Shown piece by piece: positions 25,651-29,680 of a DNA stretch of 37,043 nucleotides. A model generated the notes under the pieces. It had not been told where the DNA came from and ran no database searches. It worked only from the letters and a program-made list of their open reading frames with translations. A program made the position numbers and the translations under genes. How positions within the stretch are numbered: position 1 is the stretch's first letter; every line of letters starts with the position of its first letter. The stretch spans positions 1 through 37,043 of the forward strand of contig CAJXPL010000026.1 in the NCBI GenBank assembly GCA_913057985.1, in the 5' to 3' direction. This DNA comes from an uncultured Synechococcus sp. Lineage in GTDB: Bacteria > Cyanobacteriota > Cyanobacteriia > PCC-6307 > Cyanobiaceae.

Positions 25651-25666
25651 GATAGGAAGTGGATAG
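25651..25666 (+). promoter_or_regulatory. Candidate FciA/FciB operator upstream of fciA
   Basis: GATAGGAAGTGGATAG matches 14 of 16 bases of the site before the unk10-type gene (29285-29300). It lies about 94 bases before the proposed fciA start. The AraC-type regulators encoded next to it are the natural binders, but this is inference. Confidence 0.5.
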
Positions 25667-25759
25667 CAAAAAAATAAAAATCAATAATTCAGAAAAATAT
25701 TAAGCTTCTTACACGCAATCGACGAAAAACAATAAAGTATAGAAACACGCAGAAGAAGT

Positions 25760-26791
25760 TTGCGAAAAAAACGATCGCGCAATTATATTTTTTCAGACAC
25801 GCTCGAGATGGAAGAGTTTTGCAGGGCACATTTTGAAGAATATCACTCAACATCTAGCTTCGGATGCAATGTAACTCAGTTAAGCACCGGCCTTCTCGAA
25901 ACGAAGACCACTTGCTCACCAATTCAAGATGTGCATCTTGAAATTTTTAAATCGAACCAAACTCTGCTCTACGAGGAAGAAGCCAACACGAAATCAGTAT
26001 CATTCTGCTGGCTAGACACATTACCGAAAAATGATACGGAGGCACAGACAATCATTAGCGGCCACCATATGACAAGAAATAGCATTGCTGGCTTCAATCG
26101 GATCAACAAAACAGGAGGAAATATCTGGGACATTGTTGGAGCAAACGAAGAGCTGTGCTGCATGAGCCTGAAATGGAATAAATTACAAGAAAGAATCAAC
26201 AAATTGAATGCATTTAATGCCTATGGGAGGCTTGAGGAATGCATTGGAATTGACTCGCATGATCATGCAAGTGCTCAGCTCAAAAAATTATTTAACCGAC
26301 ATTTTAATGGCCATCCATCAACAAAACCAAATTCATTTTACGATCTAGCAATCATATTCCTAGACAACGAAAATAATGAATCAACCTATGATGCACATCG
26401 ATGCGAGTCAACTGATCTAATAGAAGACATGGTTAAACTAATTCACGAAGATAGGGCTGGAATGCCACCAATAACACTTGACGAAATTACTGAATACTTG
26501 AATTCAAAAACAGAGTCTCTCAATACTATATGCCGAAAGATCTTTAATATGGATGTAATTGAGCTTGTAAGAAGAGTACGCCTGGAACAGACCCGCAAGG
26601 CTTTTTTAACCCCACATTCCTCAACAGGTCTCAAAGAGTTTACAAAAAAGAGAACAGCACTTTACTACGGTTTTAAGAACTGGAAAAAATTTGAAGCCTC
26701 CTACTCCACATATTTTGGAGAATCACCCAGCCAAACAATAGATAGATCCAATAAGAATTTATATTCATTTAGTGCATGGCAGGGAGAGTAA
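25760..26791 (+). CDS. fciA: AraC-family regulator FciA of type IV chromatic acclimation
   Basis: The 343-residue protein has an N-terminal sensor-like region and a C-terminal AraC double helix-turn-helix (about residues 233-332; ITLDEITEYLNSKTESLNTI CRKIF, VIELVRRVRLEQTRKAF, YYGFKNWKKFEASYSTYFGE SPSQTI). It is a tandem paralog of the next gene, 3 bases away. In RS9916 the pair fciA-fciB controls the blue/green pigment switch. No ATG precedes Met17; I take the TTG at 25760 because residues 9-20 (YIFSDTLEMEEF) align with the FciB N-terminus, and ATG 25808 is the alternative. Strongly AT-rich. Confidence 0.85.
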   Translation: MRKKRSRNYIFSDTLEMEEFCRAHFEEYHSTSSFGCNVTQLSTGLLETKTTCSPIQDVHLEIFKSNQTLLYEEEANTKSVSFCWLDTLPKNDTEAQTIISGHHMTRNSIAGFNRINKTGGNIWDIVGANEELCCMSLKWNKLQERINKLNAFNAYGRLEECIGIDSHDHASAQLKKLFNRHFNGHPSTKPNSFYDLAIIFLDNENNESTYDAHRCESTDLIEDMVKLIHEDRAGMPPITLDEITEYLNSKTESLNTICRKIFNMDVIELVRRVRLEQTRKAFLTPHSSTGLKEFTKKRTALYYGFKNWKKFEASYSTYFGESPSQTIDRSNKNLYSFSAWQGE

Positions 26792-26794
26792 TAT

Positions 26795-27760
26795 ATGAAA
26801 ACTTCTATTGAATATCGTGATCCACTTGAGCTCTCTGAAGAGCTTGCAAAACTCGGGCAGCTTACAAAAATAACGCAACTGGAAGGTGGCAGTGGTTTCT
26901 ATACTATGCAAGCAGCAAATGCTAATAAAGTCACACTCGCAGAAATATCTGCAAGCAAAACATTATTATACGAGGGTTGGGGCAATGGTATAACTATTGA
27001 TTTTAATTGGATTACGCCAAAAGCGAATACTCAAGGAGTCTTTGGCTATTGCGATGGATTTAAGATGACAAAAAATAGCCTGGCTGGATTTGGCACGATT
27101 AATTCAGTACCAGGAAATGCATGGGGAAAATATAATAACGAATGCTCTAGCACTGGTTGCATGCTTGAAAAGCAGCTCCTATTTGAATTACTCGAAAATT
27201 GCAAAGCATATGATGGACTAGAACGACTCACGGGTGATCAAGGGATTTTTTGCAATAATAAAGCTCTAAATCAACTTAAGAGATTAGCTGCCAGAGAAGT
27301 AGCTACTGGAATTCAGAGCCCAGAAAAATATTTTGATCTTGTAATCGCATGCCTAGAAGAGCCAATGACTGAGCAAAACAGTCAAGATCCAAAACATATC
27401 GATCAATTAAGAGAAATCATTGATCTTGCGCATAGTGAGAAGAGCATGGAATCCCCTCTGTCACTGCTTGAAGTTTGCAAGTATATAAATACAAGTCAAG
27501 CATCATTATATCGTATATGTCAGGAGTACTTTGGAATGGGAATCATTGAATTGATGACACAAATTAGACTTGAGGAATCCAGAAGAATTATGCTTAACCA
27601 AGACGCTCGTCGGAAATTAAATCTATATTCAATTCGAGATATTGCAATTAAATATGGGTTTAAACATCAAGGGAGATATGCACGGCGCTATTACACTGCA
27701 TTCGGAGAACTTCCAAGTCAGACCATCGAAAAGTCGAGAAGATATAAATTAACTATGTAA
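26795..27760 (+). CDS. fciB: AraC-family regulator FciB of type IV chromatic acclimation
   Basis: The 321-residue protein has the same architecture as FciA. The N-terminal region shares the block MTKNSLAGFGTINSVPGNAW (FciA: MTRNSIAGFNRINKTGGNIW). The C-terminal AraC domain is about residues 225-315 (LSLLEVCKYINTSQASLYRI CQEYFGMGIIELMTQIRLEE, IAIKYGFKHQGRYARRYYTA FGELPSQTI). Published work in RS9916 gives FciA and FciB different effects on acclimation. It is separated from fciA by 3 bases and is convergent with mpeZ, 28 bases away. Confidence 0.87.
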   Translation: MKTSIEYRDPLELSEELAKLGQLTKITQLEGGSGFYTMQAANANKVTLAEISASKTLLYEGWGNGITIDFNWITPKANTQGVFGYCDGFKMTKNSLAGFGTINSVPGNAWGKYNNECSSTGCMLEKQLLFELLENCKAYDGLERLTGDQGIFCNNKALNQLKRLAAREVATGIQSPEKYFDLVIACLEEPMTEQNSQDPKHIDQLREIIDLAHSEKSMESPLSLLEVCKYINTSQASLYRICQEYFGMGIIELMTQIRLEESRRIMLNQDARRKLNLYSIRDIAIKYGFKHQGRYARRYYTAFGELPSQTIEKSRRYKLTM

Positions 27761-27788: not shown

Positions 27789-28982
27789 TTACAACTTACG
27801 CAAAACCTCTGCACATGTCCATCGAAGGGGCTCCCAAGTAGATGTCATCAACAAATTCTCAATGTCAGCACGACATTCCAACAAACCCAAGTTTAAACAT
27901 CCCCAAGTCGCTGCAATTTTTGATTTTGCATATTGCGGAGCTGGCTCCAATAATGATTCCTTGATTATGTAAGACAATTCTGTTAAGCCAAGTTGAGACA
28001 CCAAACAATTTACTTGATAGTGAACACCATAATCAGAGCCATGATTGTCCCAAATAGTCTTAATTGCGTCAGTTACAGTTGAAGCTGGCCAACTGAATAA
28101 GGCCTTAGCACCAAAGTACTGGCGCTCCTCATCTCTATGCTTAAGGAAATCGCAAACTTTTTCTAAATCATTTGGTGCATCAAATTTCTGCGTAAAATAC
28201 AAATGTCGAGAATCATCCTTCAACATTTGATTGATTAATGTTTTTTGCGATCTAGTTTTAATTTTAGAAGTCATCTTGAACGCACTTTTAGCTCTCAACG
28301 GCATTGACACCGCTGCTTTCGAAATACTTGACAAAAGAGAAGGGTCTCCAGCGTCACCAATATCAATGACGGATGAACGTCGATGTATGACATTCAAATC
28401 GTTGAGGTGATTTTCAAGAATATGCAATTTACGCTTGTCATCTTCAACCCTTATTGAATAAGCGATTGATGCGCCATTAACCAATATATTTGGATTGCTC
28501 TCTTGCTCGTGAATAATGCCATTACACTCATGCATCTCTAAACGCGTGAAACATTGAATGGCAACACGCTTGAGTACATCGGAGCCATCTTGAATAATCT
28601 TCAAAAGAGATGATTTAAACTGAGCATCAAGAGGTATGCCAAAATTAATCAGCGTATCTACTGAATTCACAATCGTCTGCTCATCCTTGCTATGCATAGC
28701 TTCATAAATGGTTGGCAGAGTACTAAGGTCGCGACGACGCCCTAGCGCTTCAATGGACTTACGACGCGTAATGGAATCGAAGATATTATCTCTATCCCCG
28801 GTAGCCGCTACAACTAATGCATCCAGAGAATCTCGTGAAGAACAAGCTCCCAACCGTGTTGCAGCTATATATTTAATACCAGGATTATCAAGAGTACTAA
28901 CATTTTGCGAAAGCAACTCAATTGCTTGCTGTTCACCCATCCATGAAAACAAATTATCAAATCGCTGTGAACTTGGCACCAT
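27789..28982 (-). CDS. mpeZ: Phycoerythrobilin lyase-isomerase MpeZ (E/F-type HEAT repeat)
   Basis: The 397-residue HEAT-repeat protein is collinear with MpeY. Shared blocks are IFDSITRRKSIEALGRRRDL, IHRRSSVIDIGDAGDPSLLS, SMPLRAKSAFKM, HRDEERQYFGAKAL and PAPQYAKSKIAATWGCLNLG L. MpeZ attaches PEB to Cys83 of MpeA and isomerises it to phycourobilin in blue light, replacing the PEB added by MpeY. Its neighbours fciAB and the unk10-type gene, and its location in the rod region, are those of CA4-A. The MpeW and MpeQ paralogs cannot be excluded by eye, but the context argues for MpeZ. Much more AT-rich than mpeBA. Confidence 0.85.
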   Translation of the reverse strand: MVPSSQRFDNLFSWMGEQQAIELLSQNVSTLDNPGIKYIAATRLGACSSRDSLDALVVAATGDRDNIFDSITRRKSIEALGRRRDLSTLPTIYEAMHSKDEQTIVNSVDTLINFGIPLDAQFKSSLLKIIQDGSDVLKRVAIQCFTRLEMHECNGIIHEQESNPNILVNGASIAYSIRVEDDKRKLHILENHLNDLNVIHRRSSVIDIGDAGDPSLLSSISKAAVSMPLRAKSAFKMTSKIKTRSQKTLINQMLKDDSRHLYFTQKFDAPNDLEKVCDFLKHRDEERQYFGAKALFSWPASTVTDAIKTIWDNHGSDYGVHYQVNCLVSQLGLTELSYIIKESLLEPAPQYAKSKIAATWGCLNLGLLECRADIENLLMTSTWEPLRWTCAEVLRKL

Positions 28983-29035: not shown

Positions 29036-29046
29036 GATAAGAAGTG
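29036..29046 (+). promoter_or_regulatory. Candidate FciA/FciB half-site near mpeZ
   Basis: GATAAGAAGTG, 54 bases upstream of the mpeZ start. It matches 10 of 11 bases of both the fciA site and the first unk10-type site, but the GGATAG part is not kept (it reads ACCCTC). Confidence 0.4.
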
Positions 29047-29281
29047 ACCCTCACGGCAGAGAGATTGATAATTAGTGGACATCTATTTTAAGAACAATAA
29101 ACCACTACAACTAATCAAGAGTTAACAAGTAGTCGTTGATTAAATTCGAGCTAATGACGATTTATCCAATCATCAAATTGTGACCGGTTCAATTCTTTAT
29201 CCACATAAGATCAGCACAGGAAAAGTACGCTGCCATATAAAATTATTGGTGGCCTACTGAGACATAAATAAGTAACAAGAC

Positions 29282-29320
29282 GCTGATAAGAAGCGGATAG
29301 TTGCTGATAAAATATGGATA
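29282..29320 (+). repeat. Tandem direct repeat at 21-bp period (candidate AraC-type operator)
   Basis: GCTGATAAGAAGCGGATA (29282-29299) and GCTGATAAAATATGGATA (29303-29320) match at 14 of 18 positions; the blocks GCTGATAA and GGATA are identical. The 21-bp period is two helical turns, as in direct-repeat operators of AraC proteins. The second copy ends 15 bases before the downstream ATG, so it could overlap the -10 region or the leader. Confidence 0.55.
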
Positions 29321-29335
29321 TGCCGCTGGTTCATC

Positions 29336-29680
29336 ATGTCACGTGCTGAATTCATACGCTTCCTTCAGGTTCTAGAAGAAGACCTGTCGTTCAGATCCCT
29401 GTTCAAAGAAGCTGAGCCCGAGGAGATCCTCAAGCTCGCTGATCAACATGGATTTATCTTTTCTGATGAAATAAAAGGGCGTTTTCTTAATCGATGGGCA
29501 GGGGTGTACTTCTGCCCATTTGCCAATGATGTCGGAAGACTATGCCCCAAAATGGTGCCGGAAGGATTCAGCACACTGCTACATTATTCGCAGACGACTT
29601 GTGCTAAAGAAGACAAAGTAGAACGTTTTGACTTCCGCGCTGGAGGCTATTACGAAGGAGTAGAAACTGTACCTCGATGA
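29336..29680 (+). CDS. Nif11-like protein of the acclimation island (unk10 position)
   Basis: The 114-residue protein begins with a clear Nif11 domain (MSRAEFIRFLQVLEEDLSFR, S-L-F-K-E-A-E-P-E-E-I-L-K-L-A-D-Q-H-G-F-I-F-S-D-E-I). A tail of about 65 residues with three cysteines (F-C-P-F-A, L-C-P-K, T-T-C-A) and several aromatics follows. It lacks a double glycine, so it is not an obvious RiPP precursor. The gene at this place in CA4-A islands is called unk10 and is of unknown function; I infer the equivalence from position. It sits behind the tandem repeat and is convergent with cpeZ (8 bases). Confidence 0.75.
   Translation: MSRAEFIRFLQVLEEDLSFRSLFKEAEPEEILKLADQHGFIFSDEIKGRFLNRWAGVYFCPFANDVGRLCPKMVPEGFSTLLHYSQTTCAKEDKVERFDFRAGGYYEGVETVPR

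Follow-up and report, generated by a model that had tools for sequence, protein, structure and literature searches.

A direct-repeat half-site as a predicted Fci operator in the CA4 islands of marine Synechococcus

We propose that a half-site of the form GATA-N6-GGATA (two boxes with six bases between them) is the operator of the Fci system in CA4 islands, that it is most likely read by FciB, and that where it lies explains why the two island types respond oppositely to light colour; for this reading as a whole we put the probability at roughly 0.7. Its first component, namely that the half-site is a predicted operator of the Fci system, is highly probable on the comparative evidence. Sequence matching places the site ahead of three genes (fciA, mpeW, and unk10) in nine CA4-B islands and ahead of fciC in CA4-A islands, where mpeZ follows. 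Where fciAB is missing, there is mostly no site or a decayed one. Through CA4, marine Synechococcus adjust their pigmentation to blue or green water; the island is believed to pass from one lineage to another. With a candidate operator at hand, the identity of the binding regulator, the light in which it binds, and the cause of the opposite responses of CA4-A and CA4-B become direct questions; silent islands could be recognised from their sequence at the half-site, which might also serve as a promoter part responsive to blue and green light. A literature search found no DNA site of FciA or FciB; Sanfilippo et al. 2016 lay outside its coverage, and an earlier report is possible.

Half-sites of the CA4-B island in the window

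The window, i.e., the whole 37,043-nucleotide stretch that was analysed, carries mpeU, fciA, fciB, a lyase gene on the opposite strand, unk10, and cpeZ, the same gene order as that of the CA4-B island in the excerpted text of PMC3877281, from which the names mpeU and cpeZ were assigned. By its location between mpeU and cpeZ, with the lyase opposite fciAB and unk10 downstream, we classify it as a CA4-B island. The two AraC-type regulators are encoded by fciA (25808..26791, plus strand; the ATG at 25808 is used, the listed reading frame starting with a TTG at 25760) and fciB (26795..27760, plus strand), whose product is the proposed binder. These are followed by the lyase gene (27789..28982, minus strand) and by unk10 (29336..29680, plus strand), which codes for a Nif11-domain protein. 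The lyase carries Tyr318 and Gly319, the residues given for MpeW in the excerpted text of PMC9705338. Its minus-strand location between fciB and unk10 in a CA4-B gene order, together with these residues, identifies it as mpeW, the phycoerythrobilin lyase gene of the CA4-B island, and the mpeZ label of the first-pass annotation is therefore rejected. A search for FciC found no match in the eight other CA4-B or CA4-B-like loci (L042-L049). A CA4-B island comprising mpeU (cut by the contig end), fciA, fciB, mpeW, unk10, and cpeZ also occurs on a contig filed as a Crocinitomicaceae MAG (L009; PBXW01000082.1), which is very likely mis-binned Synechococcus.

The direct repeat that the first-pass annotation placed before unk10, with a period of 21 bp (GCTGATAAGAAGCGGATA at 29282-29299 and GCTGATAAAATATGGATA at 29303-29320), is real, and its sequence and coordinates are correct. 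It contains a distal half-site, GATAAGAAGCGGATA (29285..29299, plus strand; 26.7 bits), and, 21 bp from it, a proximal one, GATAAAATATGGATA (29306..29320, plus strand; 24.0 bits), these and all other site scores being those of 17-mers against a matrix trained on 18 distinct 17-base words from nine CA4-B islands only, with the mpeW-proximal words and the mpeW-distal words of two islands (G061 and L009) left out. The related word reported before fciA, GATAGGAAGTGGATAG (25651-25666), does match the first copy at 14 of 16 bases and holds the half-site GATAGGAAGTGGATA (25651..25665, plus strand; 22.5 bits). Before the lyase gene, the reported GATAAGAAGTG (29036-29046) starts, as claimed, 54 bp from the start codon at 28982, the gene being mpeW; it belongs to the proximal half-site GATAAGAAGTGACCC (29036..29050, plus strand; 6.2 bits). 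A further, overlooked copy, GATAATTAGTGGACA (29067..29081, plus strand; 20.1 bits), lies 31 bp away and reads away from mpeW, giving the lyase gene two copies. The second box is GGATA at three of these five half-sites (25651, 29285, and 29306), GGACA at 29067, and the variant TGACC at 29036; box A is GATA or GGTA in the window half-sites and in the CA4-A sites.

A matrix scan of the window found no site of at least 18 bits besides those at 25651, 29067, 29285, and 29306. The next-best score is only 12.9 bits, and hence there is no site before the linker or PE structural operons, in agreement with the first reading of the sequence. In the window alone, five matches with at most three mismatches stand against 1.80 expected, with five or more in 6 of 100 shuffles; the count is marginal, and as single-window evidence this is weak, a point in favour of chance similarity or of shared descent without function. 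A search of the 2.43-Mb genome found two exact matches to the pattern, each of them inside the window.

Several other elements were observed in these intergenic regions. A weak inverted copy on the minus strand, CTGATCTTATGTGGATA (29198-29214; 12.9 bits), has counterparts of 11.6-12.0 bits in G207, G234, and G249; it was set aside as a site, reaching 11 bits in only four of nine CA4-B islands. Before fciA, ATTAAGCTTCTTAC (25699-25712), conserved in most of the nine CA4-B islands, is similar to the element upstream of the CA4-A fciC-mpeZ genes and contains the inverted word TAAGAAGC, which is present on the minus strand (25704-25711) as first described. Just 5' of the fciA start codon, GCGAAAAAAACGATCGCG..AATTATA (25762-25790) is near-invariant in the nine CA4-B islands and is possibly a promoter or leader element.

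Conservation across CA4 islands and decay without fciAB

At E values up to 1e-60, relatives of FciB occur in 13 of 34, 12 of 31, and 3 of 6 genomes of three genera, with no such match outside these genera in a draw of 400 genomes of the family. Our comparison spans 29 islands (L009 included), comprising ten CA4-B or CA4-B-like islands (the window, G174, G207, G234, G225, G249, G004, G061, L009, and the divergent G070) and 19 CA4-A islands (L050-L068), counts that are not independent because the lineages are related by descent. Dropped from the set were two entries that duplicate a contig (L008 that of G207, L010 that of G097), L011 (a 25-residue match), the fciB remnant of G075 (L069), a paralogue in G197 (L070; covered by a gene list only), and a contig-end fragment in G273. 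For G317 (L096), which stands outside the island counts, only the fciC promoter was read, and the second unk10 copy of G097 was scored outside the count of genomes lacking fci genes.

The four best-conserved non-overlapping 15-bp windows in the 365 bp upstream of unk10 (nine islands, without G070) start at 29283, 29064, 29035, and 29304, i.e., they are the four half-sites of the mpeW-unk10 spacer (29036, 29067, 29285, and 29306), the distal unk10 half-site overlapping the most conserved window of all. The site before fciA ranks fifth among the 15-bp windows there, stretches nearer to the start codon being conserved too. The spacing within both pairs, 31 bp at mpeW and 21 bp at unk10, is constant in all nine islands, and the mpeW-distal half-site is weaker in L009 and G061 (14.1 and 14.6 bits, respectively). 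The first-pass annotation had staked its motif on recurrence in other CA4 strains, and at least one site of at least 18 bits was indeed found in all nine other CA4-B or CA4-B-like islands and in all 19 CA4-A islands. In the divergent G070 (FciA 54% and FciB 58% identical to the window proteins), such a site occurs only before unk10, where the pair is kept with a proximal copy of 20.7 bits and a diverged distal copy below 9 bits; neither the fciA site nor the mpeW site was found in this island. According to the excerpted text of PMC3877281, mpeW is induced 36-fold in green light in MINOS11, which is also of a divergent CA4-B type; thus, if the island of G070 behaves like that of MINOS11, mpeW would be controlled there without the mpeW pair.

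The CA4-A islands provide an out-of-sample comparison. The matrix trained on CA4-B words finds exactly one match of at least 18 bits in each of the 19, located between fciB and fciC, at a distance of 99-174 bp from where the fciB match ends and on the opposite strand from fciC, with no other match of at least 14 bits in 487,428 positions x strands of these loci. Among the controls, first-order Markov sequence (9.75 million) yielded a single match of 18 bits and 19 matches at the 14-bit level, and 200 column-permuted matrices gave a mean of 0.145 matches (maximum 3). All 19 sites fit YTGRTAARAANYGGATA, with GGATA invariant; fciC lies behind the site in every one of them, and the stretches fetched include mpeZ in 17 cases (all but L060 and L065). 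Given the conservation of the half-sites against diverged flanks in CA4-B islands, the match at a single position in 19 of 19 CA4-A islands, and the permuted-matrix controls, chance similarity or functionless shared descent is untenable as a whole explanation and retains a negligible probability. A point that counts against the operator reading is that, although the CA4 island is described as self-regulating, the matrix scan found no site of even 9 bits between unk10 and fciA in CA4-A islands.

The CA4-A islands (L050-L068) share a second conserved element (TTAAGMTT or TTGNGCTTTGTAAA-like), which precedes the site by about 18-19 or 28-29 bp, the two positions being one helical turn apart; its reverse complement resembles an RpaB (HLR1) half-site. 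As a candidate second Fci half-site, this element (TTAAGMTT/GAGCTTTGTAAAC) was rejected: the GAGCTTTGTAAAC form is kept in five islands that lack fciAB, and therefore it is probably not one. In one CA4-A island (L065, genome G239), a stop codon truncates fciA (105 residues), and mpeZ was not found in the 13-kb stretch; the operator-like site and fciC remain.

Loss of fciAB is mostly accompanied by absence or decay of the site. Twenty-one genomes have unk10 without fciAB, of which 19 were scanned over 250 bp upstream of unk10, five of them also over 700 bp upstream of the lyase gene. A site of at least 18 bits is kept before unk10 in 3 of the 19 (G162, G112, and G204), each with a degraded second (proximal) copy of 14 bits, so that decay is not universal; G314 and G295 retain 16.4 and 12.6 bits, and the other 14 fall below 7 bits. 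A Fisher test on a preliminary table of counts was discarded, the genomes sharing common descent. Where the site is absent it may have been lost or may never have been present. Five fciAB-less islands keep fciC-mpeZ (G295, G277, G307, G327, and G317), with about 210 bp between unk10 and fciC and hence no room for fciAB, and probably share one deletion. The orthologous place, TATCC..TTATCAA in its intact form, reads AATCC..TTATTAA, AATCC..TTGTTAA, GGCCC..TTGTTAA, GACCC..TTGTTAA, and TGCCC..TTGTTAA in this set: both boxes are mutated in all five, with a -10-like hexamer (TAGGAT, TATAGT, or TATGGT) and the upstream GMGCTTTGTRAACTG preserved. In a sixth lyase island lacking fciAB (G301), neither an fciC match nor a recognisable relic of the site was found. 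Remnants of fciB, fciA, and fciC without any site of at least 9 bits were observed in L069 (G075), which we regard as a decayed CA4-A-like island.

A pattern search allowing one mismatch in 26 genomes returned 41 matches, 28 of them in CA4 islands, three before unk10 in genomes lacking fci genes, and ten elsewhere. The reversed pattern gave 21 matches as a control (26 genomes, summed from the table); the ten outside matches are fewer than this, and thus no regulon beyond the island is indicated. The fciA/fciB pair is said to co-regulate only three genes, all in the island, which together with the genome-wide search suggests a regulon confined to it.

Promoter placement, the reader of the site, and the colour response

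The putative -10 hexamer of unk10 (TAAAAT; 29308..29313, plus strand), placed by alignment, is TAARAT in all nine CA4-B islands and TAGGAT in G070. Since TAARAT falls inside the proximal half-site in 9 of 9, the pair would cover the region from about -38 to the start. In CA4-A islands, a TAnnnT hexamer lies exactly 6 bp after the 17-bp site in 19 of 19 (TAAAAT in ten, TAGAAT in four, TAGGAT in two, and TAAACT, TATAAT, or TACAAT in the remainder); with this hexamer as the -10, the -35 hexamer and spacer would fall within the site. Placed in this way, the site would overlie the core promoter of both mpeZ and unk10, and lie upstream of mpeW. At mpeW, no conserved TAnnnT was found between the near site and the start codon, and the best -10-like stretch, picked by eye from the sequence, is about 28 bp beyond the near box; the -10 was not located, and the activating position is therefore soft.

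These hexamers also bear on the view that the repeat is a core promoter only, consisting of an extended -10 (TGATAAAAT) and a matching upstream sigma-factor element, with no operator. The TAARAT of the proximal unk10 copy would fit it, as would the retention of a TGATAARAT-like sequence, with the rest lost, in some relatives without fci genes. However, the word occurs in both orientations relative to genes, the mpeW and fciA sites lack a conserved TAnnnT placed as in CA4-A, and GGATA, which lies outside the -10, is invariant in the CA4-A sites yet mutated in the five fciAB-less islands. The orientations and the behaviour of GGATA lead us to reject a core promoter alone as the whole explanation, and we consider it very improbable.

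The first-pass annotation had proposed an FciA/FciB operator that would serve self-regulation. The part of this proposal that concerns the DNA is supported by motifs at orthologous positions in other islands; the protein evidence, in turn, favours FciB over FciA as the candidate binder. FciB passes the Pfam HTH_18 model (53.2 bits vs a cut-off of 33.6), and its structural model (pLDDT 68 overall; 61-90 for 10-residue blocks in residues 201-320) has helices at 235-246 and 292-303 and a C-terminal domain matching 3oio (TMt 0.83) and the AdpA-DNA complex 3w6v (TMt 0.85), with two helix-turn-helix motifs. FciA falls below the HTH_18 gathering score (30.4 vs 33.6 bits; E 4.8e-07), has one PDB match (3mn2; E 0.00064), and yields a model whose pLDDT (62) is lower than that of FciB; it is likely a diverged relative. 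Identity between CA4-A and CA4-B reaches 0.77 and 0.74 in the FciB recognition helices, compared with 0.47 in the N-terminal part and 0.61 in the whole DNA-binding domain (190 pairs), whereas in FciA it is only 0.36 and 0.41 in the helices, compared with 0.59 in the N-terminus and 0.48 in the domain (180 pairs, without the FciA of G239). Invariant helix positions number Q235, A236, S237, L238, Y239, R240, C242, F246, K290, H291, G293, R294, R297, R298, Y299, and F303 in FciB (27 sequences), and C242, F246, W292, F295, and Y299 in FciA (26 sequences). G309 and RS467 (L009) are absent from the FciB and FciA alignments (A1/A2), and G239, with its stop in fciA, is absent from A2.

The site is common to CA4-A and CA4-B, the FciB helices are conserved and those of FciA far less so, and FciB is therefore the likelier candidate binder; that FciB, and not FciA, is the main reader of the site appears likely from these alignments. 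It is unlikely that FciA is the reader instead, or that the site is recognised solely by an FciA-FciB heterodimer in which each protein holds a different half-site. In favour of this alternative, both proteins are AraC-like and their genes adjacent in 29 of 29 islands, and the mpeW pair is asymmetric, with a TGACC second box in one half-site; against it, the FciA helices keep few invariants and vary between the island types more than the N-terminus does, while the site stays the same.

For four CA4-A strains, the excerpted text of PMC3877281 gives mpeZ levels raised 6.7- to 333-fold in blue light; for three CA4-B strains, it gives mpeW levels raised 35.9- to 1,150-fold in green light. It also names strains that do not acclimate despite carrying all the genes (WH8109, WH8103, and MVIR-18-1). 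BIOS-E4-1, which is without fciAB, has a locked blue phenotype in which mpeZ is not differentially expressed, and the authors suggest repression of mpeZ in green light by an Fci complex. A site over the putative mpeZ core promoter fits this suggestion. In our proposal, FciB would be active in green light and bind the half-site, the GATA and GGATA boxes each presumably being contacted by one helix-turn-helix. Bound over a core promoter (unk10 in CA4-B; mpeZ in CA4-A), it would block RNA polymerase, such that the gene is off in green and on in blue light; bound upstream of the poor mpeW promoter, it would activate, turning mpeW on in green. FciA would counteract FciB, perhaps as its binding partner and not as a reader of this DNA. 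Disruption of fciB reportedly gives a constitutive blue phenotype and disruption of fciA a constitutive green one, which fits FciB as a green-light repressor. Judged from site placement, repression by FciB is likely at mpeZ and rather probable at unk10, and activation by FciB at mpeW is favoured by a narrow margin of confidence.

Under this proposal, the position of the site, over the mpeZ promoter versus upstream of mpeW, would produce the opposite responses of the two island types. A stricter version is tentative, and we would sooner bet against it: the opposite responses would come purely from operator placement, with one FciB and one DNA word, unk10 would respond oppositely to mpeW in CA4-B islands, and FciA would no longer read DNA and would be a light-set antagonist that pairs with FciB. 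A serious though less favoured alternative accepts the Fci operator and attributes the opposite responses to FciC, or to a changed FciA/FciB logic, rather than to site position. Only CA4-A carries the gene fciC, which the excerpted texts of PMC10904595 and PMC3877281 put forward as a possible source of the opposite responses. However, it lies downstream of the site, between the site and mpeZ, and is kept in the five fciAB-less islands where the site has decayed, and therefore fciC alone does not maintain the site. Position would suffice in principle, and FciC may play a part as well.

Comparison with known operators

The predicted Fci operator is closest in architecture to that of XylS at the Pm promoter, where 15-bp direct repeats, TGCA-N6-GGNTA, are read by two helix-turn-helix motifs (excerpted texts of PMC4225500 and PMC5481539). 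Shared with it are the 15-bp direct-repeat half-sites with box A, six bases, and box B, the GGATA second box, a form of GGNTA, at three of the five window half-sites and in 19 of 19 CA4-A sites, and the two helix-turn-helix motifs of FciB. In contrast, box A is GATA or GGTA here and TGCA in XylS, and hence these are not XylS sites but sites of XylS-like architecture; the second boxes at 29067 (GGACA) and 29036 (TGACC) also depart from GGNTA. Unlike at Pm, the period is 21 bp in the unk10 pair and 31 bp in the mpeW pair, and there is a single copy at fciA and in CA4-A islands. The second Pm site overlaps the -35 by two bases, whereas the sites at unk10 and mpeZ would, by their putative -10 positions, lie over the core promoter, and the signal is light colour rather than benzoate. 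The AraC I1-I2 operator has 17-bp half-sites with a 4-bp gap, i.e., a 21-bp period, as in the unk10 pair; it differs in its boxes, and no looping site was identified here. Between the two island types themselves, the half-site and its orientation relative to the lyase gene are the same; it occurs once per CA4-A island, overlapping the putative -35 and spacer of fciC-mpeZ, whereas in CA4-B islands those at mpeW sit farther upstream of the gene, with additional ones ahead of unk10 and fciA.
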